Assembly: GCF_003851125.1 (NCBI RefSeq)
Contig: NZ_BGOW01000027.1
Coordinates: forward strand, 1-64,000
Source of the DNA: Sulfuriferula multivorans
GTDB taxonomy: Bacteria; Pseudomonadota; Gammaproteobacteria; Burkholderiales; Sulfuriferulaceae
Reading direction: 5' to 3'
DNA length: 64,000 bases
Shown: positions 46,540 to 64,000 of the stretch, one piece after another
Numbering within the stretch: position 1 is the stretch's first letter
Layout: each line of letters starts with the position of its first letter
Made by a program: the position numbers and the translations under genes
Notes under the pieces: generated by a model
The model's database searches: none
Seen by the model: the letters and a program-made list of their open reading frames with translations, nothing else
What the model was told of the DNA's origin: nothing

Positions 46540-47178
46540 CTACACAAACAGCCACGGCGCTTCCGCCTTGCGCCGTTCTTCATAAGCCTTGATCTTGTCC
46601 GCTTGTTGCAGGGTCAGGCCGATATCGTCGAGACCGTTAAGTAGGCAATACTTGCGGTGCGCATCCACGTCGAAACCGAAGGACTCGCCAGCGGGCGTGG
46701 TAACGTTCTGCCGTTCCAGATCCACCTGCAGGGCGTAACCGGGCGTCGCTTCGGTTTCACGGAACAACTGATCGACGATGGCCGCGTCCAGCACGATAGG
46801 CAGCAGACCGTTCTTGAAGCAGTTGTTATAGAAAATATCCGCAAAACTGGGCGCGATGAGGGCGCGCAAGCCAAAATCCTCCAGCGCCCACGGCGCGTGT
46901 TCGCGGCTCGATCCGCAGCCGAAGTTCTCGCGCGCAAGCAGCACCTGCGCACCCTGGTAACGCGGCTGGTTGAGCACGAAATCCGGATTTTTCGGGCGAT
47001 TACTGGCATCCTGCCCCGGCTCGCCATGGTCGAGATAACGCCATTCATCGAACAGATTTTGGCCGAAACCGCTACGCTTGATGGATTTCAGGAACTGCTT
47101 GGGAATGATGGCATCGGTATCCACATTGGCGCGGTCGAGCGGCACCACCAAGCCGTCTAGTAGGGTAAATGCACGCAT
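46540..47178 (-). CDS. leuD: 3-isopropylmalate dehydratase small subunit
   Basis: Small subunit of the aconitase-like isomerase that converts 2- to 3-isopropylmalate. 212 residues. [20 protein letters not shown] and [20 protein letters not shown] are the family signatures. Its ATG overlaps the TAA of the small lipoprotein gene upstream (TAATG), so the two are coupled. Confidence 0.96.
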
Positions 47179-47306
47179 TATTTTTCCGATTTTTTCTGGA
47201 TGGTGTCCCCGACTTTTTCAACATCCTGGCCGAAGCCATGCATGGTATTGCAGGCGGAAAGGCCAAGAACGGAAAACAGGGTAACAATAAGAGCAAGGGT
47301 GCGCAT
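47178..47306 (-). CDS. entericidin-like small lipoprotein between leuC and leuD
   Basis: A 42-residue predicted lipoprotein. Signal [18 protein letters not shown] ends in the lipobox LSAC, giving lipidated Cys19. The mature part [20 protein letters not shown] has the entericidin A/B pattern (CNT..G.G.D....G..I). A GGAGTGA ribosome site precedes the ATG at 47304-47306, 18 bases after leuC. Entericidins are bacteriolytic or antidote lipoproteins in E. coli; the role in a leu operon is unknown. A similar protein is encoded at 56683-56841. Confidence 0.82.
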
Positions 47307-50136: not shown

Positions 50137-50865
50137 TCAACCCACCGCCTTGTCCGCCAAATCGGCGAGCAAGCTGTCGTACTGTTTTTTTACAATGTCG
50201 TAACACTCGCAGGCCTGCGCTTCCAGCTTGTGCCTATCCAGAATTTCGATGCGACCCCGGGAATAGCTGATCAGACCGGCATCCTGCAGCCTGACTGCGG
50301 CTTCAGTAATGCTCTCTCTACGCACACCCAGCATGTTTGCAATCAATTCCTGCGTCATGCGTAATTCGTCCGTAGGCAGGCGATCAATATTCTGTAACAG
50401 CCAGCGACATAATTGCTGTTCCACCGAATGGCGACGGTTGCAGCCGGTGGTTTGCGACATCTGAACAATCAGTGTCTGAGTGTAGCGCATCAGCAAATGC
50501 TGCAAGCTTCCACAGTGGTCGAACTCCTCTTTCAGAATGCTGGATTTCATCCGGTAAGCATGGCCTGAATGCTGGATCGTGGCCTGCGTGAGCGAAGTCT
50601 GTCCACCCATGAAGATCGACACGCCCAGCACGCCTTCGTTTCCGACCACAGCGACCTCTGCCGAGGTGCCGTCTTCCATACTGCACAGCAAGGACGCAAT
50701 CAAGGTTGTCGGGAAATAACCATATTCCAGCGCTTCATCAAATTCATATAGCACCTCGGAGCGTTCCAGAGATACCAACTCAAGATGGGGTGCGATGTGC
50801 TCGAATTGATCGTCGGGCATTGCGCCAAGCAAGTGATTCTGTTTTGGATCGTGTATAGCTGACAT
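50137..50865 (-). CDS. Crp/Fnr-family transcription regulator
   Basis: A 242-residue regulator. The N-terminal cyclic-nucleotide-fold domain carries YGYFPTTLIASLL and VVGNEGVLGVSIFMGG; the C-terminal winged helix carries LRMTQELIANMLGVRRESITEAAVRLQDAGLI. There is no FNR-type Cys cluster, and I see no cAMP-binding Arg-Ser pair, so the signal is unknown. The recognition helix keeps the R-R-E that in Crp reads TGTGA-like half-sites. It is divergent from a lipoprotein gene across a dyad at 50911-50926 that is a plausible binding site. A close paralogue is encoded at 60407-61168. Confidence 0.9.
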   Translation of the reverse strand: MSAIHDPKQNHLLGAMPDDQFEHIAPHLELVSLERSEVLYEFDEALEYGYFPTTLIASLLCSMEDGTSAEVAVVGNEGVLGVSIFMGGQTSLTQATIQHSGHAYRMKSSILKEEFDHCGSLQHLLMRYTQTLIVQMSQTTGCNRRHSVEQQLCRWLLQNIDRLPTDELRMTQELIANMLGVRRESITEAAVRLQDAGLISYSRGRIEILDRHKLEAQACECYDIVKKQYDSLLADLADKAVG

Positions 50866-50910
50866 GGCCTGGCCCCAGATTTTGTGACACGAAAAGATTT
50901 GGCTCTTTAA

Positions 50911-50929
50911 TGTGCGACAGCGTACAGAC
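50911..50929. promoter_or_regulatory. candidate Crp/Fnr-type operator, copy 1
   Basis: TGTGCGACAGCGTACAGAC; its first 16 bases form an imperfect dyad TGTGCG-N4-CGTACA with Crp-like half-site spacing. The identical 19 bases recur at 56567-56585. It lies between the divergent regulator (start 50865) and the glycine-zipper lipoprotein (start 50978), 45-50 bases from each, where it could control both. Confidence 0.55.
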
Positions 50930-50977
50930 TGCTGTCGGCATTTCTCCTAATCTGCGAACTCGATCATAGGAGATTCC

Positions 50978-51463
50978 ATGAAAACATTCCACAAGGTGCT
51001 TGCGATTGCAGGCGTGAGCGTGATCTTGCTGGGTGGCTGCGCCAGCACCAATCCATATCCGGATACGCGCTCCAGTAATCCATACCCCGACAATCAATAC
51101 GGCAATGCTCCGCGTTACAGCAGCGCCTATGGGGTGGTCGATTCCATCAACACAGTGCGTACAGACAGTAACGGCAGCCCGATAGGCATCGGTACCATCA
51201 TTGGCGGTGTCGTGGGCGGCGTACTGGGCAACCAGGTCGGCGGTGGCACAGGCAGAACTGTGGCCACGGCGGCGGGCGCAGTCGGTGGTGCCATTGTGGG
51301 TCACCAAATCGAAAAGAACCGCAATGCTGCGAACGCCAATGCTTTTCAGATACGCGTACGTCTGGATAACGGGGCTTACGAAACCTTTACCCAGAATGAT
51401 ATAGGCGATATGCGTGTTGGGGATCGGGTTCGCATCGACAACAACCACGTCACGCGCTATTGA
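50978..51463 (+). CDS. glycine-zipper outer-membrane lipoprotein
   Basis: A 161-residue lipoprotein. The signal ends in VILLGGC (lipidated Cys21). A Pro/Tyr/Asn-rich stretch with two NPYPD repeats follows, then a glycine-zipper 2TM segment at about 70-108 (IGTIIGGVVGGVLGNQVGGGTGRTVATAAGAVGGAIVGHQIEK) and a small beta domain (FQIRVRLDNGAYETFTQNDIGDMRVGDRVRIDNN). This is the SlyB/PcP family layout linked to envelope stress. ATAGGAG precedes the ATG. First gene of the envelope-stress region. Confidence 0.88.
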   Translation: MKTFHKVLAIAGVSVILLGGCASTNPYPDTRSSNPYPDNQYGNAPRYSSAYGVVDSINTVRTDSNGSPIGIGTIIGGVVGGVLGNQVGGGTGRTVATAAGAVGGAIVGHQIEKNRNAANANAFQIRVRLDNGAYETFTQNDIGDMRVGDRVRIDNNHVTRY

Positions 51464-51554
51464 TATCACGCGGTTTTGCCCTTGCATCCGTACCAGAGTG
51501 CATCAATTCTCGCCGGGTAATCCCGCCTGTCGAATTCACTGCAAAGGAGAAAAC

Positions 51555-51770
51555 ATGAACTGGGACATCGTTCAAGGAAACTGGAAACAATTCAAAGGTA
51601 ATGTCAAACAACAGTGGGGCAAGCTTACGGATGATCACCTGGATCAAATCGCCGGCAAACGCGACCAACTGGTGGGCAAGATCCAGGAAGCTTATGGCGT
51701 CAACAAGGATGAGGCTGAAAAGCAGATCAAGGAATTCGAAGAGCGCAACAAGGACTTCCGCGCCCATTGA
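51555..51770 (+). CDS. CsbD-family stress protein
   Basis: A 71-residue CsbD-like protein, a small, highly charged family induced by stress in many bacteria; molecular role unknown. The pattern MNWDIVQGNWKQFKGNVKQQ, WGKLTDDHLDQIAGKRDQLVGKIQEAYG is the full family domain. AAAGGAG precedes the ATG at 51555. A weak dyad-like segment (CGTACCAGAGTGCATC) lies at 51489-51504. Confidence 0.92.
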   Translation: MNWDIVQGNWKQFKGNVKQQWGKLTDDHLDQIAGKRDQLVGKIQEAYGVNKDEAEKQIKEFEERNKDFRAH

Positions 51771-51845
51771 GGCGTACCCGAAACCACATCGACCACCCGG
51801 TTCGGGTTTATGAAATCAGAACCGCCAGATAACCGAAGGAGAAAA

Positions 51846-52034
51846 ATGATGGGATTTGACCAAAAAGGATCCACCGTTTTTTGTGTTCAACATGGTAAAT
51901 CCGGGCAGTGGGAAGTAAGCGAAGAAGGTTTTGACAAGCCGCTTGCATCCTTCGACAGCCCTGAAGATGCCAAGAAATATGCCAATGACCTGGCCAAAAC
52001 CAAGGAAGGTTCTGGCGTCAAAGTAATCGACTGA
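51846..52034 (+). CDS. DUF2188-like small protein
   Basis: A 62-residue protein: GSTVFCVQHGKSGQWEVSEEG, then FDSPEDAKKYANDLAKTKEG and VKVID. The aromatic pattern (V..GKSGQWEV..EG...PLASFDSPEDA..YA..LA) matches DUF2188, a small alpha/beta domain of unknown function. The start at 51846 has AAGGAG six bases upstream; a second ATG follows directly. It stands between the csbD gene and the CX10C-repeat gene, each with its own ribosome site. Confidence 0.78.
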   Translation: MMGFDQKGSTVFCVQHGKSGQWEVSEEGFDKPLASFDSPEDAKKYANDLAKTKEGSGVKVID

Positions 52035-52061
52035 CTCACTTGATTCTCAAAAGGAAATATC

Positions 52062-52673
52062 ATGAAAAAAACCACTCTTACCGCACTTACCGCAGCCATT
52101 CTGTTGGCTTTCAGCGCTGGGGCCATGGCTGAGACCATGTCCAAAAGCGATTACAAGGCGAGCAAAAACAGCATCAGTTCCGAATACAAGGCCGCCAAGG
52201 AAAAATGCGATTCATTGTCAGGAAATGCCAACGACGTTTGCGAGGCCGAGGCCAAGGGCAACGAAAATGTCGCCAAGGCTGAACTGGAAGCGAAATACAA
52301 ACCCAGCGAGAAGACGCGTTACAAGGCTTTGATGGCGAAAGCAGAGGCCGCATACAAAGTGGGCAAGGAACGCTGCGACGACAAATCGGGCAATGCCAAA
52401 GATGTTTGCGTGAAAGAAGCCAAGGCCGCTTTTGTGCATGCGAAAGCCGATGCTAAAGTCCAGATGAAGAGCCTGCAGGCAGATGAAAAGGCCAGCAATA
52501 CATCCGCAGAAGCCAACATGAAAGCCAAGGAAAAAACCTCCGACGCGCAGCATGACGCTGCAAAGGACAAGCGTTCGGCAGATTTCGCTGTGGCCAAGGA
52601 AAAATGCGAGACCTATTCCGGTGCGGCCAAAGACCGTTGCATCAATCAGGCGAAAGCACAGTTCGGGATGTAA
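52062..52673 (+). CDS. exported Lys/Ala-rich protein with three CX10C repeats
   Basis: A 203-residue exported protein; the signal peptide ends at AMAE. The mature chain is mostly charged helix with three repeats of the form K-E-(K/R)-C-(D/E)-x3-G-x-A-x-D-x-C: Cys49/60, Cys105/116 and Cys182/193. Six Cys in an exported protein with constant spacing suggest three local disulfides pinning helical hairpins. No enzyme motif is visible. I recognise this only as a hypothetical protein type of betaproteobacteria. AAAGGAAATATC precedes the ATG. Confidence 0.82.
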   Translation: MKKTTLTALTAAILLAFSAGAMAETMSKSDYKASKNSISSEYKAAKEKCDSLSGNANDVCEAEAKGNENVAKAELEAKYKPSEKTRYKALMAKAEAAYKVGKERCDDKSGNAKDVCVKEAKAAFVHAKADAKVQMKSLQADEKASNTSAEANMKAKEKTSDAQHDAAKDKRSADFAVAKEKCETYSGAAKDRCINQAKAQFGM

Positions 52674-52800
52674 TTGGACATCTGAAACTGCTACAACCCA
52701 TTATCCGGAAATGGTGTTCAATTTTAATGAATATTCCGGCACCGGATAAGGGTCATAGACCAGCATAAACTGATTACAAATTTTAAAGAGGGGTTTTGTC

Positions 52801-52950
52801 ATGCTATATACCATCGCCGTTATTTTAATCATTCTCTGGTTGCTGGGCATGGTCACCTCATACACCTTGGGGGGATTCATTCACATTCTTCTGGTCATTG
52901 CGATAGTGGTTATCCTGCTCCGCGTGATCAGCGGCCGGCCCCCGGTATGA
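52801..52950 (+). CDS. Lmo0937-family small membrane protein
   Basis: A 49-residue peptide with two hydrophobic helices: LYTIAVILIILWLLGMVTSY, then a turn TLGGF and IHILLVIAIVVILLRVISG. The pattern LWLLG....T.GG.IHILLVIAI....L.R is that of Lmo0937-like proteins, small membrane proteins often near stress genes. AAAGAGGGG precedes the ATG at 52801. Function unknown. Confidence 0.85.
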   Translation: MLYTIAVILIILWLLGMVTSYTLGGFIHILLVIAIVVILLRVISGRPPV

Positions 52951-53096
52951 ACCGCGCGTGGTGATCGTTTCATGTATGGACACCCAGCTTGCGTCATGGC
53001 TGCCACGGCGATTTCGCCACGTTTAGCCAGGGCGGTTATGGTTGGGTTTCCCATACATGGCTCCGCGTTGAACAGAAAATCAAAGAGAGCAATAGA

Positions 53097-53744
53097 ATGA
53101 CTTTCGCACGCAATCCTGCGGTAGAAATCGGACTGCTCCTGCTCCTGGCAGGGCAAGCAGGCGTGAGCCATGCCGACGTCAAGGCGGGTGAAGCGATCGC
53201 AAAAAGCGGGACCGGGAATATTTCCGCCTGCATGCTGTGTCACGGCCTTAACGGGGAAGGTCGGCCGCCTGCTGGATTTCCGCGTTTGGCAGGGCAGAAT
53301 CGGGACTACCTGGTCAAGCAATTAAAGGATTTCAAGGCAAAATTGCGTACCAATCCTTTGATGCGACCCATCGCCAGTGCATTGAACACTGCCCAGATGA
53401 ACGACGTCGCGGATTATTACGCCAGTTTGCCGCCCTGGAAACCAGGCACCGGCCCTGCCCAAAATACAGCGCAAACGCCCCGTGGCGCGCAACTGGCGCA
53501 GCACGGCAACTGGGACAAAGGCATGCCTGCCTGTTTTGCCTGTCACGGTGCAAATGGCGCCGGGATCCCGCCGCACTTCCCGAGTATTGCCGGGCAAAAT
53601 GCCGTTTACATAAGCAATCAGCTTAATGCCTGGAAAGCCGGAACGCGTATCAATGATCCTGAAGGATTGATGAAGGCTGTTGCAGACAAACTGAGCCCCG
53701 AGGATATCAGTGCTGTCAGCGCCTATCTTGCGAATCCGAAATGA
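53097..53744 (+). CDS. dihaem cytochrome c4-like protein, TsdB-like
   Basis: A 215-residue exported cytochrome. Signal peptide (EIGLLLLLAGQAGVSHA), then two class I cytochrome c domains with haem motifs CMLCH (45-49) and CFACH (146-150); each is followed by the G.GRP..FP.LAGQ / G.IPPHFPSIAGQ pattern of cytochrome c4. It would carry electrons in the periplasm. It precedes a TsdA-like gene by 22 bases, the tsdB-tsdA order known from thiosulfate oxidisers. The start ATG 53097 follows AAAGAGAG. Confidence 0.88.
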   Translation: MTFARNPAVEIGLLLLLAGQAGVSHADVKAGEAIAKSGTGNISACMLCHGLNGEGRPPAGFPRLAGQNRDYLVKQLKDFKAKLRTNPLMRPIASALNTAQMNDVADYYASLPPWKPGTGPAQNTAQTPRGAQLAQHGNWDKGMPACFACHGANGAGIPPHFPSIAGQNAVYISNQLNAWKAGTRINDPEGLMKAVADKLSPEDISAVSAYLANPK

Positions 53745-53766
53745 TGAGAGTTGATGGAGACACGCC

Positions 53767-54705
53767 ATGAATCGATTGCTTGATCGACTGACGCAAAATG
53801 GCAAATTTCATCCCATGTGGATCGTGCTGGCCGTCACCGGGGTATTGATTGTTGCATCCATAGTCTTTATTCCCGCGCGTTATGAAGGTTCCAAGGAACC
53901 CAAACAAAAAATAGCCGTTGCCGACCATGCAGCCGCAGAAACCCTGCCCGAGCCGGATGCGGGACAGCACGAATCAAAACCGGAGCCGGCAGTTATCCAA
54001 ACGACACATTTCACGCCCCCGGCAGAGCGCGATATGCCCACCGGCGAAATGGGCGACATGATCAAACTGGGCAGAAATATTTTTGTACATACTCAAGTGT
54101 ATGCAAAAAATCTGGTCGGCAATGGTTTGAATTGCGTGAATTGCCACCTGGATGCAGGTCGCAAAGCTGACTCGGCGCCATTATGGGGTGCGTATGTAAT
54201 GTTTCCTGCTTACCGGAGCAAGAATCACAAAGTAAACAGCTTTGAAGATCGTTTAGCGGGGTGCTTCCGATTCAGCCTGAATGGCACGCCACCCGCTTAT
54301 AACAGCAAGGAAATGCTGGCCTTGACCAGTTACAGCTACTGGCTGGCGACAGGCGCTCCTACCGGTAAAGAACTCGCTGGCCGTGGTTATCCAAAGCTGG
54401 ACAAACCTCCACGGCAGCCTGATGCGCAACGCGGCGCTGCGGTATTCGAGAAAAACTGCGCAATTTGTCATGGCGCAGATGGACTGGGTACGAAAGTAAA
54501 CGCACAATATGCGTTCCCGCCGCTCTGGGGAAAAGATTCCTTTAATGCGGGCGCAGGTATGCATTCAGTAAAAAATGCAGCTGCCTTTATCAAGGCCAAC
54601 ATGCCGCTCGGCAAAGGCAACTCGCTCTCGGTACAAGAGGCCTGGGACGTTGCACAGTTCGTGGATAGCCACGACAGGCCGCCAGACCCTAGAGTAAAAA
54701 AATAA
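53767..54705 (+). CDS. TsdA-like dihaem cytochrome (thiosulfate dehydrogenase family)
   Basis: A 312-residue membrane-anchored cytochrome. One N-terminal helix (MWIVLAVTGVLIVASIVFI) and a Pro/Glu-rich linker precede two haem domains. Haem 1 is CVNCH (123-127); haem 2 is CAICH (231-235) with a likely Met ligand in ANMPLG. Between them, FPAYRSKNHKVNSFEDRLAGCFRFSLNG contains Cys166, in the place of the unusual Cys haem ligand of TsdA. TsdA joins two thiosulfates into tetrathionate, or works in reverse. The match in motif order and the TsdB-like neighbour support the call; substrate is not proven. Confidence 0.78.
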   Translation: MNRLLDRLTQNGKFHPMWIVLAVTGVLIVASIVFIPARYEGSKEPKQKIAVADHAAAETLPEPDAGQHESKPEPAVIQTTHFTPPAERDMPTGEMGDMIKLGRNIFVHTQVYAKNLVGNGLNCVNCHLDAGRKADSAPLWGAYVMFPAYRSKNHKVNSFEDRLAGCFRFSLNGTPPAYNSKEMLALTSYSYWLATGAPTGKELAGRGYPKLDKPPRQPDAQRGAAVFEKNCAICHGADGLGTKVNAQYAFPPLWGKDSFNAGAGMHSVKNAAAFIKANMPLGKGNSLSVQEAWDVAQFVDSHDRPPDPRVKK

Positions 54706-54748
54706 GGCAGTTCATTCTGCCTGCAGGAAAATCATAGGTGAATGCGGC

Positions 54749-54958
54749 ATGCCTAACCCCTTACCAGAGACGGTAACACTCCAGATTAGACGGCCAGTCT
54801 GCCCGGCGTGTGGAGGTGCGTTGGCACGCATACACCGTAGACTTATCGACCGTTTAATCAGCATGGTGGTCTTGCGTCATCGATATCGTTGTCTCGCATT
54901 GGGCTGCGGCTGGATTGGAAATCTTCCGCCAGTGAAAAAGTACATCATGCAACAGTAA
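54749..54958 (+). CDS. small zinc-ribbon-like protein
   Basis: A 69-residue basic protein with four Cys: CPAC at 18-21 and CLALGC at 48-53, the spacing of a zinc ribbon, and many Arg between them (ARIHRRLIDRLISMVVLRHRYR). Such a protein could bind nucleic acid or another protein; no family name can be given. An in-frame GTG 11 bases earlier is an alternative start. It lies alone between tsdA and the broken phospholipase D gene. Confidence 0.55.
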   Translation: MPNPLPETVTLQIRRPVCPACGGALARIHRRLIDRLISMVVLRHRYRCLALGCGWIGNLPPVKKYIMQQ

Positions 54959-55041
54959 GCATTCTGTTTGCTTCTTACCTCTTCCCAGTGCTTAAAGGCA
55001 AGCCCCGAACATGAATAGGGATCAAAATTTGCACTTGAAGA

Positions 55042-56535
55042 ATGACAGTAAGCCAGTTCCGACTGGATATACATACTAATCAAAAAACTGGTTTGTTCAT
55101 GGTGATGACGATGCAATTGCAATACTTCGCAGATTGTTTTTCTAATTGCTTATCGCATACCAAATTACTGATTGCAGCTATGACAAGTCTACTGATGATG
55201 GCTGGCTGCGCCAGTCTTCCCGATGCCAAAGCCACCCTCGCGACCCCTCCGCAGGCGGTGCAATTTGATAACGCCGACGGCGCATTACCTGCAAAAAAAA
55301 GTCAAGCCATCCTCAGGCAATTAAAGCTGGAGGCAGGCAGTCTGGATATCTTGCAGAAGCATCTGGCGCTGGAGCAGCAAATCAATCCTGAAAATCCGCT
55401 GGTATTAGGTAACAAAGTCACTTTGTTACAGGATGGGCCATCCACCTATAAAGCCATGTTTTCTGCCATCCGTAGCGCACGGCACACGATCAACCTGGAA
55501 ACTTACATCTTTGAAGTTGGCAAGGTCGGCGATGAGTTTGAGGAATTACTGCTGGATAAACAGGCCCACGGAGTCAAGGTCAACCTGATTTACGACAGTG
55601 TCGGCTCACTCGGCACGCCCTAAGATTTTTTTAAATTCATGGCCGACAGCGGTATCCATGTAGTGGAGTTCAATCCGGTTAATCCACTGGCGCACAATGC
55701 CAAAACCTGGCGGCTGAATAATCGTGACCATCGCAAGCTATTAGTTGTGGATGGTCGAATCGCCTTTGTAGGAGGCATCAATATCAGCGATGCATACTCC
55801 AGTGGCTCTTTTTTACGTCATAAAACAAAAAAAGGTAATCCATCATTCGGCTGGCGTGACACCCATGTTGAGATTGAAGGACCCGCGGTTGCCGAATTTC
55901 AGAAGCTGTTCCTGGCTACCTGGAAAAAACAAGGCGGCGCACCGCTTAGCCAAAGCGATTATTTTCCTCAACTTCACAAGCAGGGCAACGAAATCGTCCG
56001 CGCCATTGGCAGTGTTGCGAATGACCCAACCAGCCCTATTTACCTGACGCTGCTCTCGGCCATCAATCATGCGGAGCGGCAGGTACATCTTACCAATGCC
56101 TATTTTGTGCCCAACCCACAGTTTCTTAAAACCTTGATGGATGCCGCACAACGGGGTGTAGATGTGAAGCTGATATTACCCAGCCATAGTGATTCATGGA
56201 TAGTCTTCAATGCGGGGCGTTCTCATTACACAACGCTATTGCGCGCTGGCGTCAAAATCTACGAGCGTCGCGGAGCGGTAATGCATGCCAAAACTGCCAC
56301 CATAGACGGTGTCTGGTCGACCATTGGTTCAACAAACCTGGATTGGCGCAGCTTTCTGCACAATGACGAGATCAACGCAGTCATCCTCGGCAGCGATTTT
56401 GCCAACCAGATGGAAGCCATGTTTGCCAACGATCTGACGCAATCGGATCAGATTGAGCTGAAGCAATGGCGGCACCGGCCCATCACTTCGCGCTTCAAGG
56501 AATGGCTATCCAGACTCCCTGAGTATTGGTTATAA
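55042..56535 (+). pseudogene. cardiolipin synthase-like phospholipase D gene with an in-frame stop
   Basis: One reading frame of a two-HKD phospholipase D protein interrupted by TAA at 55621-55623. The upstream part has a lipoprotein-type signal (LLMMAGCAS), LLQDGPSTYKAMFSAIRSARHTINLETYIFEVG and ends VGSLGTP; the frame continues without shift as DFFKFMADSGIHVVEFNPVNPL. Both HKD motifs lie after the stop: HRKLLVVDG and HAKTATIDG, with NLDWRS near the end. The stop replaces a single residue. The second part begins with an ATG at 55639 and could be made alone as a 298-residue protein. Either a recent nonsense mutation, a recoded stop or a sequencing error. Confidence 0.82.
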
Positions 56536-56566
56536 AACCAGTCTTGCCGATCACGCATGATATCTA

Positions 56567-56585
56567 TGTGCGACAGCGTACAGAC
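56567..56585. promoter_or_regulatory. candidate Crp/Fnr-type operator, copy 2
   Basis: TGTGCGACAGCGTACAGAC, identical in all 19 bases to 50911-50929. It lies 32 bases after the phospholipase D-like gene and about 100 bases before the entericidin-like gene. A 16-base imperfect dyad TGTGCG-N4-CGTACA is included. Confidence 0.55.
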
Positions 56586-56682
56586 CGCGTCTGTCATGCC
56601 CGATAAAGTTGCTCCAGCCTTGTAAATCACTGCTTCCGGTTTTCGGGCTTTTTATTCAGCTTTTAACGTTCAGGAGAAAATC

Positions 56683-56841
56683 ATGACCAAGAAAATTTTA
56701 TCCGCATTGATAATGGCTGGCACATTGGGGATGTTGCTCAGCGTCTCGGCTTGCAATACTGTAGCCGGCGCAGGTAAAGATGTTGAACATGCTGGTGATG
56801 CCATTCACGACAAAGCCAGGGACGTGCAGAACAGCAATTAA
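56683..56841 (+). CDS. entericidin-like small lipoprotein
   Basis: A 52-residue lipoprotein. The signal peptide ends in VSAC; the mature part CNTVAGAGKDVEHAGDAIHD has the entericidin A/B pattern. CAGGAGAAAATC precedes the ATG at 56683, and a strong terminator follows 20 bases after the stop, so it is a single-gene unit with the dyad at 56567 in its upstream region. Entericidins are small outer-membrane lipoproteins linked to stationary phase in E. coli. Confidence 0.88.
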   Translation: MTKKILSALIMAGTLGMLLSVSACNTVAGAGKDVEHAGDAIHDKARDVQNSN

Positions 56842-56860
56842 GCCATCTTCAGGCGGAAAT

Positions 56861-56894
56861 ATTAAAAAAGGCTCTGCCAGGAGCCTTTTTTAAT
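56861..56894. terminator. bidirectional intrinsic terminator
   Basis: A 14-bp perfect stem (56861-56874 with 56881-56894) around the loop TGCCAG, with A6 on the left and T6 on the right. It ends the entericidin-like transcript 20 bases after the stop and would work in both directions. Confidence 0.95.
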
Positions 56895-57037
56895 AAATTA
56901 CAGGTTCATTGGTAACAGAGTAGCTCGAATTATTCTGAACCGGCGATTGTCGGATTCAAAGCAAATCCTTCGATATCTTCTTAGGAAGGCAAATCCGACC
57001 AACAACGAGCATAGTTAGCCACTTCCCGGTCGAAATC

Positions 57038-58216
57038 ATGGAATCCCATCCCGAATCGATAAATGCAGCGAAAGACGCAATCAGTACTCTGGAAACTCAT
57101 GATCTGACGCTGCCACCTGCGCATGAGACGGTGGCAACTCATAACATGGCGCTTACCATGCTCGCTGTTATCGCGCTGATATTTACGCTTGATTGGGCCC
57201 AGGTTTTTGTCATTTCCATTCTGCTTGGAATTTTATTCGCCTATACGCTCAATCCACTCGTCGCCTGGCTGGAATTAATCAAAATTCCGCGCATATTGGG
57301 CGCCACTTTAGTAATGCTTACCGTGGTCAGCGCGGGATTACTGTGCACCTACGCTTTACGTGGGGAAATGCAGACGATACTGGATCAGTTACCCAAGGCC
57401 GCCAGCAAGTTATCGTCCGTAACGAGTCATTTGCAACGTGGCCAGCTCAGTAACATGCAAAAAGTACAGATCGCTGCAAATGAAATTGAAAAAGCCACCA
57501 ATCAGGTTGGCGCTACCCCTGAGGCTAACAAGCGATTGAAGACCTACGTGGTCGTCGATCCATCTCCATTCAAGCTGAGCAATTTATTATGGTCGGGTTG
57601 GACGGGCTTGCTGACATTTTTCGGGCAGGCTGTCATGGTGGCATTCCTCACCTATTTTTTACTGCTGTCGGGTGATACTTTCAAGCGCAAGCTGGTACGT
57701 CTGGCGGGGCCCACCCTGACCAGAAGGAAAATTACCGTTCATATCCTGGATGACATTAACAATTCCATCCAGAGTTACATGTTCATGCTGTTGATCACCA
57801 ACGCCATGGTAGGTATTTTCACCTGGGCGGCCTTCTCCTGGCTGGGCCTGGAAAACGCAGGTGCCTGGGCGGCAGCGGCAAGCCTGTTACATATCATTCC
57901 TTATTTTGGACCCGTTATTACTGCCTCCGTGACCGGCATGGCAGCGTTCATCCAGTTCGATTCGATTTCATCAGCACTACAGGTGGCCGGCGCATCGTTG
58001 CTGATAGCCACCATCATTGGCACCCTGGTCACTACCTGGATGACGGGCAGGTTTGCAAAAATGAATACTGCGGCAGTGTTTATTTCCCTGCTGTTCTGGA
58101 CCTGGCTATGGGGTATATGGGGCATGCTGCTTAGCATACCCATCATCGTCATCGTTCGGGTCGTGTCACAGCATATAGAACCGTTGCATCCTCTAGCAGA
58201 ATTGCTGGGGGACTAA
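57038..58216 (+). CDS. AI-2E family transporter
   Basis: A 392-residue inner-membrane protein of the AI-2E (UPF0118/PerM) family. Two N-terminal helices (MLAVIALIFTLDWAQVFVISILLGILFAYTLNPLV), a third near 90-110, a long extracytoplasmic helical segment (about 115-190) and five C-terminal helices including YFGPVITASVTGMAAF, then LFWTWLWGIWGMLLSIPIIVIVRVV. Family members export signalling molecules or act as ion antiporters; the substrate is not predictable. Its N-terminal 35 residues are hydrophilic. It sits alone after the terminator. Confidence 0.9.
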   Translation: MESHPESINAAKDAISTLETHDLTLPPAHETVATHNMALTMLAVIALIFTLDWAQVFVISILLGILFAYTLNPLVAWLELIKIPRILGATLVMLTVVSAGLLCTYALRGEMQTILDQLPKAASKLSSVTSHLQRGQLSNMQKVQIAANEIEKATNQVGATPEANKRLKTYVVVDPSPFKLSNLLWSGWTGLLTFFGQAVMVAFLTYFLLLSGDTFKRKLVRLAGPTLTRRKITVHILDDINNSIQSYMFMLLITNAMVGIFTWAAFSWLGLENAGAWAAAASLLHIIPYFGPVITASVTGMAAFIQFDSISSALQVAGASLLIATIIGTLVTTWMTGRFAKMNTAAVFISLLFWTWLWGIWGMLLSIPIIVIVRVVSQHIEPLHPLAELLGD

Positions 58217-58274
58217 GCAGACCAATGGGACATATAGCTGGATAGATAGCGGGAATACAGAGCATTTGGAATTA

Positions 58275-58290
58275 TGTGCGGTACCGAACA
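58275..58290. promoter_or_regulatory. candidate Crp/Fnr-type operator, copy 3
   Basis: TGTGCGGTACCGAACA, with TGTGCG-N4-CGAACA halves around a self-complementary GTAC core. With flanks it matches the copy at 56567 in most positions (TATGTGCG on the left, ACAGA on the right). It lies 100 bases before the Q-rich secreted protein gene. Confidence 0.5.
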
Positions 58291-58390
58291 GAAACGTCCG
58301 GGCAAGAGCAGGTATCATTTTAAACATGCGGGGGCCTCATTTCATTGACAACCCCAACTCCGAATTTGGATAACAAACCGGGCTCACATA

Positions 58391-59386
58391 ATGCTAAAAA
58401 TCCGCTCCATGTTAATTTTACTCGGCATGCTATTGTCCTCGGCTGCATCGGCGGCCGTCCAGGTGAACATTGGTATTGGGCTGCCTCACGCCAACATCGG
58501 GATTTACCTGCCGGCATACCCGCAACTCGTCGTCGTGCCAGGTTACCCGGTCTATTACGCACCTCGACTGGATGCAAACTTCTTTTTTTACGACGGCATG
58601 TACTGGGTTTACCAGGATGATGATTGGTATGCGAGTTCCTGGTACAACGGCCCCTGGTGGCTAGTACAGCCAGAGGCTGTGCCGGTATTCATCCTGCGGA
58701 TTCCGGTGCGCTACTACCGTCAGCCGCCTGCGTACTTCCGCGGGTGGCGACCGGATGCGCCGCCGCATTGGGGGAATCACTGGGGCCATGATTGGGAACA
58801 GCATCGACGCGGTTGGGATAGATGGAACCACCGCGCTACCCCTGCACCTGCCCCGCTACCCACCTACCAGCGCCGGTATTCAGGGGATCGGTATCCCGAA
58901 CGCATGGAGCAGCAGCATGAGCTGCAACAGCGCAATTACCGTTACCAGCCGCGCGATCCCGTAGTGCGGAAAAGCTATCAGGAGCAAGCCGTGCAAAGAG
59001 CACCTGTCCAACATGGCAAACCTCAGCATGAAAAACAGGGAGCGCCTGAACAGAGAGGTTCCAGGCAGCCGGATTTCCAGCGTTCCGCGCCGCAGCAACA
59101 GGATATGCCCGGCTCGCCGCGCTTACAGTCACCGCAAAGGGGCCACGAAGACATTCAAAAATCTATTCCAGCCCCCTCACAACAGAGACGCCCGGAAGGC
59201 CAGGATCATAGGCAGCCGCCACAGCCAGATATGACCCCGCATGAGCAGCCGATGCAAAGATCACAGGGCCGGGAAGAAAAAAAACATGGCAAGGACGCCC
59301 AACACGAACAGCATCGTGGACAAGGACAAGGACAAGGACAAGGACAAGGACAAGGGCAGGATCGAGGCCGGGATCGCAATGAATAG
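58391..59386 (+). CDS. exported Gln/Arg/Pro-rich protein with aromatic N-terminal domain
   Basis: A 331-residue protein with a signal peptide (MLILLGMLLSSAASAA). Residues 25-125 are rich in Tyr/Trp/Pro (PAYPQLVVVPGYPVYYAP, FFFYDGMYWVYQDDDWYASSWYNGPWWLV), a pattern seen in small secreted YXWGXW-like proteins. From about 150 to the end it is low complexity, rich in Gln, Arg, His and Pro. It ends in a run of Gly-Gln dipeptides coded by six GGACAA hexamers at 59318-59353. Probably disordered and periplasmic or surface-associated; function unknown. A candidate operator lies upstream at 58275. Confidence 0.8.
   Translation: MLKIRSMLILLGMLLSSAASAAVQVNIGIGLPHANIGIYLPAYPQLVVVPGYPVYYAPRLDANFFFYDGMYWVYQDDDWYASSWYNGPWWLVQPEAVPVFILRIPVRYYRQPPAYFRGWRPDAPPHWGNHWGHDWEQHRRGWDRWNHRATPAPAPLPTYQRRYSGDRYPERMEQQHELQQRNYRYQPRDPVVRKSYQEQAVQRAPVQHGKPQHEKQGAPEQRGSRQPDFQRSAPQQQDMPGSPRLQSPQRGHEDIQKSIPAPSQQRRPEGQDHRQPPQPDMTPHEQPMQRSQGREEKKHGKDAQHEQHRGQGQGQGQGQGQGQDRGRDRNE
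59318..59353 (+). repeat. hexanucleotide microsatellite (GGACAA)6 inside the Q-rich gene
   Basis: Six exact copies of GGACAA in tandem, followed by a GGGCAG variant. Each unit codes for Gly-Gln, so slippage would change length without breaking the frame. Confidence 0.95.
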
Positions 59387-59470
59387 GCAATGCAGACCGA
59401 GCAGCTTGCGGTTCCGTTTTACCGAGCCTCCTCGTCACAATATAAAAGCACTTCTACAGGAGAAGATGGA

Positions 59471-59683
59471 ATGAATTCAGTCAAGATGTTGGCAATTGTA
59501 CTGATCGTGGCCGGCGGTTTGGGATTGGCGTACGGTGGTTTCACTTACACCAAGGAAACCCATCAAGCCAAACTGGGCCCGATAGAGTTGTCAGTCAAGG
59601 ATACGCAAACCGTAAACATTCCAATCTGGGCTGGCGTGGGCGCGATTGTGGCAGGGGTGTTCCTGCTTACTCTGCGCAAGTAG
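59471..59683 (+). CDS. DUF3185-family small membrane protein
   Basis: A 70-residue protein with two transmembrane helices (VKMLAIVLIVAGGLGLAYGGF and IPIWAGVGAIVAGVFLLTL) separated by a short polar segment (TYTKETHQAKLGPIELSVKDTQTVN). This is the DUF3185 pattern. CAGGAGAAGATGGA precedes the ATG. The function is unknown. Confidence 0.88.
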   Translation: MNSVKMLAIVLIVAGGLGLAYGGFTYTKETHQAKLGPIELSVKDTQTVNIPIWAGVGAIVAGVFLLTLRK

Positions 59684-59787
59684 TTGAGTCCATTTCCGAT
59701 GGGTATGCCCATGAATTACGGGCAGATCCATGCAGTATTTTGCCTGTTTTTTTACAGTCAACCGCACGGTAAAAAGACAGGATTTCC

Positions 59788-60135
59788 ATGAACGCAACAG
59801 CACCAGCAACGGAGAAAAGTATGGATAAGTTATCTGATGAAGTTACCAAAGAACAGTTGATCGCCGATTTCAAAGTGGTGATAGCGGATGCCGAAGCATT
59901 GCTGAAAGCAACTGCCAACCAGGGCGGCGAGAAGCTGACCGAGGTACGCGCCAAGGCGGAAGAATCCCTCCGGATCGCAAAAGCCGGTATCGCAGAGGCG
60001 CAGGCGGCACTGCTTGTCAAAGCCAAAGCTGCAGCCCAGGCAACCGACGCTTATGTCCATACATATCCATGGCAAGCCATTGGCGCCGTCGCTGGTGTCA
60101 GTCTGGTAATCGGCATACTCATCGGGCGCCGCTAG
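59788..60135 (+). CDS. DUF883/ElaB/YqjD-family membrane-anchored protein
   Basis: A 115-residue protein: a long amphipathic helix rich in Ala/Lys/Glu (TKEQLIADFKVVIADAEALLKATANQGGEKLTEVRAKAEESL) and one C-terminal transmembrane helix (PWQAIGAVAGVSLVIGILIGRR). This is the layout of ElaB/YqjD, inner-membrane proteins linked to ribosome binding in stationary phase in E. coli. The YVHTYPWQAIGAVAG motif before the helix is diagnostic. A second ATG at codon 12 is an alternative start. Confidence 0.9.
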   Translation: MNATAPATEKSMDKLSDEVTKEQLIADFKVVIADAEALLKATANQGGEKLTEVRAKAEESLRIAKAGIAEAQAALLVKAKAAAQATDAYVHTYPWQAIGAVAGVSLVIGILIGRR

Positions 60136-60406
60136 TTGCTTCGCCAGAGCTAAACACCCCATGGGCAAGGATCGGCTCAATGCCGGCCTTGCTTTGGGGC
60201 GGGCTAACCGGCGCCTGATCGCATCTGGATAGGATGGAACTGCCGCTGTATGTCTCAGATCACGCATCAATGTAGCAGGGAGCGCTATAGCCATCGGATA
60301 ACCCCCCTGCGTACACACATCAAAGCCGACAGGCTTGCAGGGTGCAAAGCGTGTATGCTGTTCGCGTGATGATCGCGCCGTCCGGCCGATTATTCTGAGA
60401 CCGCCT

Positions 60407-61168
60407 ATGGATACCGCACACAGTCCCAATCAAAACCATCTTCTTGCCGCCCTGCCCACCGCTGAATTCGAGCGCATCGCGCCTCATCTTGAGTTGGTCG
60501 CGATGCCGCTGGGTGATGTTCTTTATGAATCCGGCGGCCAGTTGCAGCACGCCTATTTTCCTACAACCGCCATCCTGTCGCTGCACTATGTCACCGAGAG
60601 CGGCGCATCGTCTGAAATCGCCGGGGTAGGCAATGAAGGCGTACTCGGCATTTCGCTTTTCATGGGTGGGAATACCACACCGAGCCGGGCCATTGTGCAG
60701 ACTGGGGGCCACGGTTACCAACTCAAGGCGCGGCTGTTGATGGAGGAATTCAATCGCATCGGGGGGCGCCGCGCCGGGGTGATGCAACACTTGCTATTGC
60801 GTTACACCCAGGCGCTGATAACACAAATATCGCAAACTGCAGTATGCAATCGCCATCATTCGGTGGAGCAGCAACTGTGCAGATGGCTGTTACTGACCCT
60901 TGATCGTCTGCCCTCGAATGAACTGACCATGACCCAGGAGCTGATTGCCGGCATGCTCGGTGTGCGGCGTGAAGGCATCACCGAGGCTGCCGGGCATTTG
61001 CAGCAAGCGGGATTCATTCGCTACCGACGCGGCCATATCACCGTGATCAATCGATCTGGCCTGGAGTCCCGCGTGTGTGAATGCTATGGGGTGGTCAAGA
61101 AAGAACATGATCGATTGCTGTGCGATGTACGCAATCGTCAGGAATTTCCGCTTACCGGTCACGCTTAG
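60407..61168 (+). CDS. Crp/Fnr-family transcription regulator, paralogue
   Basis: A 253-residue regulator closely related to the one at 50137-50865. The two share NQNHLL, ERIAPHLELV, YFPTT, VGNEGVLGISLFMGG, HSVEQQLCRWLL and the winged helix LTMTQELIAGMLGVRREGITEAAGHLQ. The recognition-helix core (GVRRE.ITEAA) is almost the same, so both may bind one operator type. There is no Cys cluster for an iron-sulfur centre. I start at ATG 60407 (MDTAHSPNQNHLL), aligned with the paralogue's start; the frame is open upstream. It follows a 271-base gap with a hairpin near 60160-60200. Confidence 0.9.
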   Translation: MDTAHSPNQNHLLAALPTAEFERIAPHLELVAMPLGDVLYESGGQLQHAYFPTTAILSLHYVTESGASSEIAGVGNEGVLGISLFMGGNTTPSRAIVQTGGHGYQLKARLLMEEFNRIGGRRAGVMQHLLLRYTQALITQISQTAVCNRHHSVEQQLCRWLLLTLDRLPSNELTMTQELIAGMLGVRREGITEAAGHLQQAGFIRYRRGHITVINRSGLESRVCECYGVVKKEHDRLLCDVRNRQEFPLTGHA

Positions 61169-61209
61169 TCCTTCGCCTTGTTTCCCGCTTTGCATAATAG
61201 CTCCATCAT

Positions 61210-61227
61210 CCGTGCGATAACGCACGG
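61210..61227. promoter_or_regulatory. perfect palindrome, candidate Crp/Fnr-type operator, copy 4
   Basis: CCGTGCGATAACGCACGG is an 18-base perfect inverted repeat (7-4-7) with the same GTGCG-N4-CG core as the other three sites. It is 42 bases after the second regulator gene and about 200 bases before the PAS protein. No T-run follows, so a terminator is less likely. Confidence 0.5.
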
Positions 61228-61427
61228 ACTGCGACAGAACTCAAGCACCATAATGAAAAATGCTTACACAAAATTCATTCACTGACTCAATGACCTCGCT
61301 CCCGGCACCCGCTTTGCAAAAGCATGCATTTTTTTATCCAGGATGAGCGTATAAGTAGGCGGGTGCTGCTCACCCCTTCGGCCACGCGATCCGTCACGCT
61401 AATTCGCGCTTTAATATGAGGACGGCC

Positions 61428-64000
61428 ATGCCCGAAACAATCCGCGATTCCGCCATTCAAAAACCCGCCACGGCGGATGGCATCACCGAGCTGCGACGCC
61501 AGGAAGTCCTGCTTAAAACCGGGGCCTTGCAGAATGCGATTTTCAATAGCGCCAACTTTTCGAGTATCGCCACCGACGAGAAGGGCGTGATCCAGATCTT
61601 CAACGTCGGCGCCGAGCGCATGCTGGGCTACACGGCCGCCGACGTGATGAACAAGATCACCCCGGCCGAGATTTCCGATCCGCAGGAAGTGATCGCGCGG
61701 GCCGAGGCGTTGAGCGTCGAACTCGGCACCCAGATTGAGCCAGGCTTCGAGGCCCTGGTGTTCAAAGCCGCGCGCGGGATCGAGGACATCTACGAGCTGA
61801 CCTACATCCGCAAGGATGGCAGCCGCTTCCCGGCGGTTGTGTCGGTCACGGCGCTACGCGACGATCAAGACGCCATCATCGGCTACCTGTTGATCGGAAC
61901 CGACAATACCGCGCGCAAGCAGGTCGAGGCAGAGCGACAGCATTTGCTCGATATTCAGGAGGAGACGCATAAACAACTGCAGCAGGCCAACGTCACCTTG
62001 CAGGTCAGCGAAGAAAAGCTCGCGGTTACGCTCAACTCCATCGGCGATGCTGTGATCGCCACCGATGCTGGCGCGCGCGTGACACTCCTGAACCCCCTTG
62101 CCGAACAGCTCACCGGTTGGACGCAGGCGGAAGCCAGTGGTCACCTGGTGGACGAGATTTTTCACATCATCAACAAAGAAACCCGTCAACCCGCCACTAT
62201 CCCGGTACTGGAAACCTTGGCACATGGCACGGTACAGGGCCTGGCCAACCACACCGTATTGATTGCACGCGATGGCAGCGAGTGCGATATCGCCGACAGT
62301 TGCGCACCGATTCGCGACCGCGACGGTCAGGTGATCGGCGCCGTGCTGGTGTTCCGCGATGTCACCGGGGAATATGCGATACAGCAGACCTTGCGCGACA
62401 GTACCGCGCAGATCCAGACGATACTCAATACCGTGGTTGACGGCATCATCACCCTCCATGCCATCGGCGGCATCGTCGAGACAGTTAACCCGGCCGCTGA
62501 GCGTATGTTTGGCTATACCGCCGCAGAACTCATCGGACAAAACTTCAGCATGCTGATACCCGAGCTTGATCGAGACCAGAGCAATGGTAATGGTTCCCTC
62601 GATTATTACAGTGCTAGCGATGAGGCGCGCGCCAGCGGCCTCGGCCGCGAGGTCGTGGGTCGGCGCAAGGATGGCAGCATTTTCCCGATGGAGATGGCGG
62701 TAAGCGAGATGTGGCTGCGCGGCCAGCGTTACTTCACCGGCATTTTACGTGATATCACCGTGCGCAAGCAGGCGGAAGAGGCACTGCTCAAGGCAGGTGC
62801 CCTGCAGAACGCGATTTTCAACAGCGCCAATTTCTCGAGCATCGCCACCGATGCGAAGGGCGTGATCCAGATTTTCAACGTCGGCGCCGAGCGCATGCTG
62901 GGCTACACGGCCACCGACGTGATGAACAAGATCACCCCGGCCGACATTTCCGATCCGCAGGAAGTGATCGCGCGCGCCGAGGAGTTGAGCGTCGAACTCG
63001 GAACCGCAATCACGCCTGGCTTTGAGGCATTGGTGTTCAAGGCCGCGCGCGGGATCGAGGACATCTACGAGCTGACCTACATCCGCAAGGATGGCAGCCG
63101 TTTCCCGGCGGTTGTGTCGGTCACGGCGTTGCGCGACGATCAAAACGCCATCATCGGCTATCTGCTGATCGGTACCGACAATACCGCGCGCAAGCAGGCC
63201 GAAGAGGCGCTGCTCAAGGCAGGTGCCCTGCAGAACGCGATTTTCAACAGCGCCAACTTCTCGAGTATCGCCACCGACGCGAAGGGCGTGATCCAGATCT
63301 TCAACGTCGGCGCCGAACGCATGTTGGGCTACACGGCCGCCGACGTGATGAACAAGATCACCCCGGCCGACATTTCCGACCCGCAGGAAGTGATCGAGCG
63401 CGCCAAAGCATTGAGCGTTGAACTTGGCACGCCGATTACGCCTGGCTTTGAGGCATTGGTGTTCAAGGCCTCGCGCGGCATCGAGGACATTTACGAGCTG
63501 ACCTACATCCGCAAGGACGGCAGCCGCTTCCCGGCGGTGGTATCGGTTACCGCGCTGCGCGACGATCAGGGTGCCATCATCGGCTATCTGCTGATAGGCA
63601 CCGACAACACCGCGCGCAAACAAATCGAAGCAGAACAGAAAAAACTGGACCAGCGCCTGCGCGACCAGCAGTTCTACACCCGCTCGCTGATCGAATCCAA
63701 CATCGACGCCATCATGACCACCGATCCGGCCGGCATCATCAGCGACGTCAACAAGCAGATGGAGGCGCTCACCGGATGCACGCGCGACGAGCTGATCGGC
63801 GCGCCGTTCAAGAACTATTTCACCGATCCGGAGCGGGCGGAGATGAGCGTCAAACTGGCGCTGAGGAACAAGAAGGTCACCGACTACGAGCTTACCGCGC
63901 GCGCCAGGGACGGCAAGGAAACGGTGGTGTCCTTCAATGCGACCACCTTCTACGATCGCGACAGGAAGCTGCAGGGCGTGTTCGCTGCTGCGCGCGACGT
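61428..64000 (+). CDS. multi-PAS sensor protein, partial (runs off right edge)
   Basis: At least 857 residues without a stop. The visible part is six PAS modules or so: three near-identical 142-residue units starting at residues 28, 453 and 595 (each LLK(T/A)GALQNAIFNSANFSSIATD .. FPAVVSVTALRDDQ .. GYLLIGTDNTARKQ), two different PAS domains between the first and second unit (LNSIGDAVIATDAGARV.. and LNTVVDGIITLHAIGG..), and a further one at the end (LIESNIDAIMTTDPAG..). There is no transmembrane segment, so it is cytoplasmic. The output domain (kinase, GGDEF or other) lies beyond the window. GAGGA precedes the ATG 61428. Confidence 0.88.
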   Translation, partial: MPETIRDSAIQKPATADGITELRRQEVLLKTGALQNAIFNSANFSSIATDEKGVIQIFNVGAERMLGYTAADVMNKITPAEISDPQEVIARAEALSVELGTQIEPGFEALVFKAARGIEDIYELTYIRKDGSRFPAVVSVTALRDDQDAIIGYLLIGTDNTARKQVEAERQHLLDIQEETHKQLQQANVTLQVSEEKLAVTLNSIGDAVIATDAGARVTLLNPLAEQLTGWTQAEASGHLVDEIFHIINKETRQPATIPVLETLAHGTVQGLANHTVLIARDGSECDIADSCAPIRDRDGQVIGAVLVFRDVTGEYAIQQTLRDSTAQIQTILNTVVDGIITLHAIGGIVETVNPAAERMFGYTAAELIGQNFSMLIPELDRDQSNGNGSLDYYSASDEARASGLGREVVGRRKDGSIFPMEMAVSEMWLRGQRYFTGILRDITVRKQAEEALLKAGALQNAIFNSANFSSIATDAKGVIQIFNVGAERMLGYTATDVMNKITPADISDPQEVIARAEELSVELGTAITPGFEALVFKAARGIEDIYELTYIRKDGSRFPAVVSVTALRDDQNAIIGYLLIGTDNTARKQAEEALLKAGALQNAIFNSANFSSIATDAKGVIQIFNVGAERMLGYTAADVMNKITPADISDPQEVIERAKALSVELGTPITPGFEALVFKASRGIEDIYELTYIRKDGSRFPAVVSVTALRDDQGAIIGYLLIGTDNTARKQIEAEQKKLDQRLRDQQFYTRSLIESNIDAIMTTDPAGIISDVNKQMEALTGCTRDELIGAPFKNYFTDPERAEMSVKLALRNKKVTDYELTARARDGKETVVSFNATTFYDRDRKLQGVFAAARD

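Follow-up and report, generated by a model that had tools for sequence, protein, structure and literature searches.

In class II promoters of CRP and FNR, the operator is centred near −41.5 and overlaps the −35 element. CRP reads TGTGA-N6-TCACA and FNR reads TTGAT-N4-ATCAA, and FNR proper carries an N-terminal cysteine cluster for an iron–sulphur centre. DdrI of Deinococcus radiodurans is a CRP-family protein with a role in stress control. The RpoS regulon of gamma- and betaproteobacteria has a large catalase, an ElaB-like protein and entericidin among its targets. In the EcfG response of Sphingopyxis granuli TFA, csbD, two catalases, ecnAB (entericidin) and many envelope genes are among the direct targets (PMC7083833). 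We analysed a 64-kb stretch of Sulfuriferula multivorans DNA, called the window below. It holds an island (positions 50137–61427) of 14 genes, all on the plus strand, flanked by the genes of two Crp/Fnr-family regulators, REG1 (minus strand) and REG2 (plus strand). The initial annotation had proposed one Crp/Fnr-controlled regulon of envelope and stress genes here. Our comparisons support this proposal through the co-occurrence of operator and regulator, the same comparison within mixed genera, enrichment in regulator loci, recurring downstream families and a test on CsbD genes. It is amended in that the sites are scattered over the genome instead of being confined to the island, and only part of the listed genes bear an operator. 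With a probability of about 0.8, the island forms one node in a regulon that is scattered over the genome and under activators of the close REG type, which would act through a class II promoter code; binding and activation we infer from the sequence.

The operator and its co-occurrence with the regulators

The operator consensus is the palindrome TNTGTRCG-N4-CGYACANA. Sites were scored against it (maximum 22), and a score of at least 20 defines a strong site. Four strong sites are found in the whole window, all within the island, and none in the reversed sequence:

50909–50928, operator 1 (score 21/22), separating REG1 from the glycine-zipper gene; GAC at 50927–50929; −10 element TAATCT at 50948–50953 after a 17-bp spacer
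56565–56584, operator 2 (score 22/22), before the entericidin gene; GAC at 56583–56585; −10 element TAAAGT at 56604–56609 after a 17-bp spacer
58273–58292, operator 3 (score 21/22), before the gene of the Q-rich (glutamine-rich) protein; GAA replaces GAC; −10-like TATCAT at 58313–58318 (by eye)
61209–61228, operator 4 (score 20/22), before the PAS kinase gene; GAC present; −10-like CATAAT at 61249–61254 (by eye)

Operators 1 and 2 have a −10-like TAnnnT at the consensus distance, and at operators 3 and 4 the −10-like element, placed by eye, lies one base farther. The 19-mer TGTGCGACAGCGTACAGAC is found in identical form at 50911 and 56567, and 100 shuffles give no match; a near copy lies at 61210 and a fourth copy at 58273. 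The shared operator-like motif suspected in the initial annotation is borne out by this repeated 19-mer and by the four strong sites.

A sample of 300 genomes of the order (Burkholderiales) was searched with the strict pattern GTRCGNNNNCGYACAGAC, the reversed pattern serving as control. Genomes with a REG1 relative at E ≤ 1e-30 were counted as regulator-positive (100 of 300). The strict pattern is found 143 times, in 72 genomes, and its reverse 35 times, in 33 genomes. The motif is present in 57/100 regulator-positive genomes and in 15/200 negative ones (Fisher 1.7e-20). Sites and reversed matches number 127 and 12 in the positive genomes, 16 and 23 in the negative ones, so the latter are at background. 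By regulator class, split by reading of the best E-values, the motif is found in 53/80 genomes with close relatives, 4/20 with distant relatives only and 15/200 with none. The motif is linked to the close REG clade. To lessen the effect of descent, 24 genera that hold both kinds of genome were compared, leaving out distant-only genomes: the motif occurs in 34/48 genomes with the regulator against 5/49 without it. In the window's own genus the counts are 7/7 and 0/2. Co-occurrence of operator and regulators, a test that the proposal could have failed, is thus seen across the order and within the mixed genera.

The same association is found around individual regulator genes. The 80 loci named here are the best 80 among the matches listed by a contig scan with 14 aligned regulators. 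They come mostly from beta- and gammaproteobacteria, including Cupriavidus, Paraburkholderia, Massilia, Collimonas, Thiobacillus, Halomonas, Methylobacter and Dyella. Together (1.11 Mb) they carry 121 strong sites in 56 of the 80 loci, and the reversed sequence carries 3. No site is found in 20 random stretches (334 kb) from regulator-positive genomes. In 37 loci, 52 site–regulator pairs have the site at most 350 nt upstream of the regulator start, and auto- and cross-regulation would therefore fit. Taken together, these comparisons indicate a real regulon of wide distribution, whose promoter code is of the class II type.

Promoter geometry and operator specificity

The trinucleotide GAC directly follows the right half-site, in one orientation, at 59 of the 121 sites, and other offsets give counts of 0–6; the sites were selected without requiring GAC, but the score rewards its A and the last A of the half-site. 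When 55 sites are oriented by GAC alone, a −10 element appears after a 17-bp spacer, with A at position 2 in 85% and T at position 6 in 84%. A set of 82 intergenic sites chosen by motif agrees (T 52, A 76 and T 72% at the −10). The distance from operator centre to −10 centre is 32 bp, which places the operator near −41.5 of a predicted start of a sigma-70-type promoter. With its fixed distance to GAC and −10, and its position over the −35, the arrangement corresponds in sequence to that of class II promoters.

The recognition helix reads GVRRE in 61 of 77 readable loci; in the other 16 the last position is S, A, P or V. Sites ending in ACAGAC are found in 19 E-type loci and in no others, and sites ending in ACCGAC in 7 and 6, respectively (Fisher 0.0019). 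GVRRE pairs with CGYACAGAC and GVRR(S/A/P/V) with CGYACCGAC, so that changes in recognition helix and operator appear to go together. The C variant is clean only in regulator loci (19 matches against 0). As a whole-genome marker it is unusable, with matches in 88/300 genomes and reversed-control columns of similar size (columns not summed). In one locus of Cupriavidus necator A5-1 (L251), genes for desaturase-like, DUF3309, BON, PLD and CX10C proteins stand in a row, and no operator of score 20 or more is present; a variant operator is likely there.

Genes downstream of the operator

The named loci and the motif-chosen set give 159 oriented sites. Of these, 21 fall within a called gene, and 114 are followed within 420 nt by the start of a gene on the same strand. 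The 114 downstream genes fall into 58 clusters, many of them singletons. BON lipoproteins (15), CsbD (11), Crp-type regulators (10), glycine-zipper proteins (6), DUF883-like proteins (5) and CX10C proteins (4) recur most. Response-regulator/PAS types form clusters of 3 and 2; DUF3309, DUF5670, catalase and others follow with 2 each. Entericidin, AI-2E, PLD and YihY are downstream once each. Counted over the named regulator loci irrespective of the operator, BON (20), CsbD (13), DUF3309 (8), DUF883 (6), PLD (6) and AI-2E (5) genes are frequent, and random stretches, 3.3 times shorter in sum, have 0 of them. Response regulators are mildly enriched (3.9 against 2.1 per 100 kb).

CsbD genes were also chosen without regard to the motif. 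A strong site within about 650 nt upstream is found for 16/58 of them in regulator-positive genomes and 1/46 in negative genomes, and reversed controls give 0 in both. The sample (n = 104) comprises 40 of 71 regulator-positive and all 37 negative rows (108 listed) and 30 further loci, less 3 of these 30 in which a pattern search did not locate the CsbD core; listed CsbD genes that lay in loci chosen by motif were left out. Most CsbD genes, even in regulator-positive genomes, therefore have no such site.

In the Sulfuriferula genome itself, exact copies of the 19-mer are restricted to the two window sites, and three further places match with 3 mismatches. Looser patterns bring more background: 7 matches against 10 reversed, 19 (at 15 places) against 3, and 41 against 24. 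At least 3 of the 15 places fall inside genes and look like chance. The following genes stand behind sites elsewhere in the genome:

C15:56738, large catalase (PF00199)
C41, BrkB/YihY-type protein
C47:35132, protein without a Pfam family, resembling cyclic-glucan synthetases by eye
C13:31411, stress-gene group adjoining another REG paralogue
C36:79826, second CsbD

A catalase identity for the gene after C47:35132 was considered and rejected, as Pfam finds no family in it; of the two, only the gene at C15:56738 is a catalase. Further site-preceded genes, recognised by eye only, are OxyR-like, phasin-like, OmpA-like, PRC-barrel-like and DUF1328-like. The regulon is thus spread through the genome and reaches beyond the island.

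The regulators

REG1 and REG2 share 140 of 244 residues (57%), and the Crp-type helix–turn–helix profile HTH_Crp_2 is over cut-off at the C-terminus of both. The island is thus bracketed by two very similar Crp/Fnr regulators, as the initial annotation had said. The pair is not unique, since the genome holds six matches to REG1 at E ≤ 1e-30, REG1 included. A structure model and fold match over residues 4–221 reveal an N-terminal beta-roll sensor and a long dimer helix; the cNMP_binding profile is below cut-off. The residues that hold the phosphate of cyclic AMP (cAMP), which we take to be the Glu and Arg of the GELxxF...RS stretch, are not kept: in an alignment to GlxR the Glu faces a gap and the Arg is replaced. 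No cysteine is found in the first 60 residues of REG1, which excludes an N-terminal cluster of the FNR type. Four cysteines, C142, C153, C219 and C221, are invariant. Because the cAMP residues are lost and these four cysteines are kept, a redox, metal or small-molecule input would be more likely than cAMP.

A second Crp-type clade, about 35–42% identical to REG1 and REG2, often adjoins close regulators (L024:10146-10844, L093, L100, L101, L105, L240 and L268). Its genes are operator-preceded in some loci, which suggests a cascade. Close regulators are also found on contigs labelled as Spirochaetales, Spirochaetaceae and Leptospirillum metagenome-assembled genomes (L247, L301, L307), reflecting either transfer or wrong binning.

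Gene content of the island

The island and its flanking genes are composed as follows:

50137–50865, minus strand, REG1, Crp/Fnr-family regulator of 242 amino acids (aa); HTH_Crp_2 over cut-off
50978–51463, plus strand, glycine-zipper 2TM lipoprotein (PF05433, 1.3e-11); operator-preceded relatives in other genomes
51555–51770, plus strand, CsbD (PF05532, 8.9e-21); without its own strong operator here, operator-preceded in other genomes
51846–52034, plus strand, DUF2188 protein (PF09954, 22.6 bits, cut-off 22)
52062–52673, plus strand, exported protein with three in-register CX10C repeats; operator-preceded in four other genomes
52801–52950, plus strand, DUF5670/lmo0937 membrane peptide (profile match); operator-preceded in two other genomes
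53097–53744, plus strand, di-haem-type cytochrome c (PF00034, two stretches)
53767–54705, plus strand, SoxA/TsdA-like cytochrome c (PF21342, PF13442)
54749–54958, plus strand, small Cys-rich protein; no family in Pfam/NCBIfam
55042–56535, plus strand, PLD/cardiolipin-synthase-like gene, split (PF13091, 1.5e-38, and PF00614, both in the second reading frame)
56683–56841, plus strand, entericidin (PF08085, 3e-07)
56860–56895, plus strand, terminator-like hairpin 3′ of entericidin (folded stretch −24 kcal/mol, z −5.0)
57038–58216, plus strand, AI-2E family transporter (PF01594, 1.4e-39); operator-preceded once elsewhere (L089)
58391–59386, plus strand, Q-rich exported protein; no family in Pfam/NCBIfam
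59471–59683, plus strand, small membrane protein; only a sub-threshold DUF202 match
59788–60135, plus strand, DUF883/ElaB-like protein (PF05957, PF19029); operator-preceded in other genomes
60407–61168, plus strand, REG2, paralogous Crp/Fnr-family regulator of 253 aa (HTH_Crp_2, 3.6e-13)
61428–64000 and past the window end, plus strand, multi-PAS hybrid histidine kinase, 1272 aa on the contig (PAS, HisKA, HATPase_c, Response_reg)

Most families given in the initial annotation are recovered by profile: the glycine zipper, CsbD, DUF2188, DUF5670/lmo0937, two cytochromes c (one SoxA/TsdA), PLD, entericidin, AI-2E and DUF883. For the DUF883 protein the nearest NCBI model is ElaB, with a score below that model's cut-off. 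The exported CX10C protein also holds, as C-x10-C is contained in three in-register repeats (repeat family D3 of the window repeat analysis). The labels "DUF3185" (sub-threshold DUF202 only) and "zinc ribbon" find no Pfam or NCBIfam family behind them, and neither does the Q-rich protein. An in-frame TAA at 55621–55623 divides the PLD gene into open reading frames at 55042–55623 and 55639–56535; the gene may be decayed or contain a sequencing error. A second entericidin-like lipopeptide of 42 aa is encoded at 47178–47306 on the minus strand, with an aconitase-family gene (leuC by eye) on one side and a leuD-looking gene on the other; it is 44% identical to the island entericidin over 41 residues.

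The earlier description of mostly single-gene units is unsupported, with 14 codirectional genes, four strong operators and one strong terminator hairpin (about 56860–56895). This hairpin is near-perfect and A/T-flanked and is usable as a terminator on both strands. A simple promoter scan of the island is at chance (11 against 11.0), and a simple terminator scan is little above it (18 against 11.7).

Proposed mechanism and alternative explanations

REG1, REG2 and their genomic paralogues would form a subfamily of dimeric activators of the Crp/Fnr type. The dimer would bind TNTGTRCG-N4-CGYACANA, whose centre is about 32 bp away from that of the −10 hexamer, near −41.5. Its right half-site would run into the −35 element, of which GAC would be the remnant, and at promoters whose −35 is poor the bound protein would retain RNA polymerase carrying the housekeeping sigma factor. 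The genes switched on would be of a kind that serves general stress and the upkeep of the envelope: BON and glycine-zipper lipoproteins, CsbD, entericidin, DUF883, CX10C, the large catalase, and the cyclic-glucan-synthetase-like and OmpA-like proteins. The regulators themselves and PAS kinases would also be targets and provide feedback. An envelope-stress response as the purpose is what we infer from these genes.

Several observations weigh against this mechanism. No score-20 site is present in 24 of the 80 named loci, both Cupriavidus necator loci among them, and 27 of the 80 genomes with close regulators have no strict motif. The C variant explains part of the 24, for example in Cupriavidus necator, where one locus has GTACG-GCAC-CGTACCGAC together with a full −10. 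The link between helix and operator is itself confounded by descent, because the non-E loci are mostly Burkholderiaceae. GAC is missing at 62 of the 121 sites, and therefore up to half of them may act otherwise, from other positions, on the other strand or in repression. In the named set the −10 has a weak first base (T 33%, C 42%). In the window, the motif is no commoner than in the reversed sequence once the threshold is loosened (11 against 20 at score 17, 5 against 6 at score 18). Moreover, 10 of the 14 genes in the island have no strong operator immediately before them; the window scan finds none before CsbD, DUF2188, CX10C, DUF5670, the cytochromes, AI-2E, the DUF3185-like protein or DUF883. 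These genes could be reached by read-through, which is conceivable because only one strong terminator hairpin is seen, after entericidin. The rest of the island can belong to the regulon only via read-through or chance.

The same operator would suit a repressor as well. Lying over the −35, it could block the polymerase until stress relieves the block; such a steric effect fits the overlap equally, and autorepression could account for the sites immediately before REG genes. The fixed 32-bp distance between centres, the weak −35 (GAC only) and the class II match favour activation, because a repressor would need no such exact phase, and we consider repression unlikely. The operator might instead belong to another factor that travels with REG, such as the second Crp-type clade described above (36–42% identical to REG1). 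Such distant relatives adjoin REG in several loci and are operator-preceded in some (cluster C2), but the motif is found in 4/20 distant-only genomes, with one site each, against 53/80 for the close clade, and changes of the operator accompany those of the close-clade recognition helix. This assignment seems rather improbable.

Since the gene set is like that of general stress regulons and the motif stands at promoter distance, it could also be read as a promoter of an alternative sigma factor, RpoS or one of the extracytoplasmic function (ECF) type. However, instead of an ECF −35/−10 pair there is a dyad of 20 bp, with an ordinary −10 behind it. RpoS is over cut-off in 130/300 genomes, the Sulfuriferula genome included; by reading of best E-values (one borderline), none reaches cut-off in 45 of the 100 regulator-positive genomes, of which 23 carry sites. 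RpoS as a requirement is thus rejected, and a sigma-factor promoter is very improbable. The island might also be an unremarkable group of small accessory genes that are not jointly controlled, its motif copies due to chance or a repeat; the presence of four operators among about 14 genes and the many families of no known function would suit this view. It is contradicted by the 300-genome, CsbD, named-locus and mixed-genus controls, and a dispersed repeat is ruled out because the downstream genes are unrelated and the flanks differ. We give this explanation hardly any credence. Activation by REG proteins from a class II position remains the preferred reading.

Comparison with known systems

No publication linking a Crp/Fnr-type regulator to such a gene set was found in the open-licence literature searched, and motif strings gave mainly unrelated primers. 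It is possible, at somewhat less than even odds, that a further general-stress architecture of Proteobacteria stands here beside RpoS and PhyR/EcfG. It would consist of non-cAMP activators of the Crp/Fnr type with invariant cysteines and one class II code; these would be autoregulated, receive input from multi-PAS kinases, and be acquired or lost as one unit together with their operators. With such a regulon, a large number of poorly understood small proteins of the envelope and of stress in environmental beta- and gammaproteobacteria, namely CsbD, BON lipoproteins, DUF883, DUF5670, DUF3309, CX10C and entericidin, would gain a control logic and a promoter code that can be searched for. It would also explain how genomes without RpoS can run a stress programme. 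The operator would make regulon membership predictable from sequence, and the signal would become a direct experimental question.

Compared with the class II systems of Escherichia coli CRP and FNR, the REG operator is GTRCG-N4-CGYAC, the cAMP residues are lost, N-terminal cysteines of the FNR type are absent, and the targets are of the stress and envelope kind. DdrI (structure 8yz7) is 15% identical and belongs to another phylum. With the RpoS regulon the target kinds overlap, whereas control here appears to be operator-based and is present in genomes without RpoS over cut-off. In gene content there is also a likeness to the alphaproteobacterial PhyR/NepR/EcfG system, which shares overlapping target kinds and paralogous top regulators (PMC7083833). 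Judged by the direct targets listed there, the gene set resembles a general stress regulon and the control differs: in that system an ECF sigma factor acts with its own promoter, whereas here a Crp/Fnr-type protein would act at sigma-70-like promoters.

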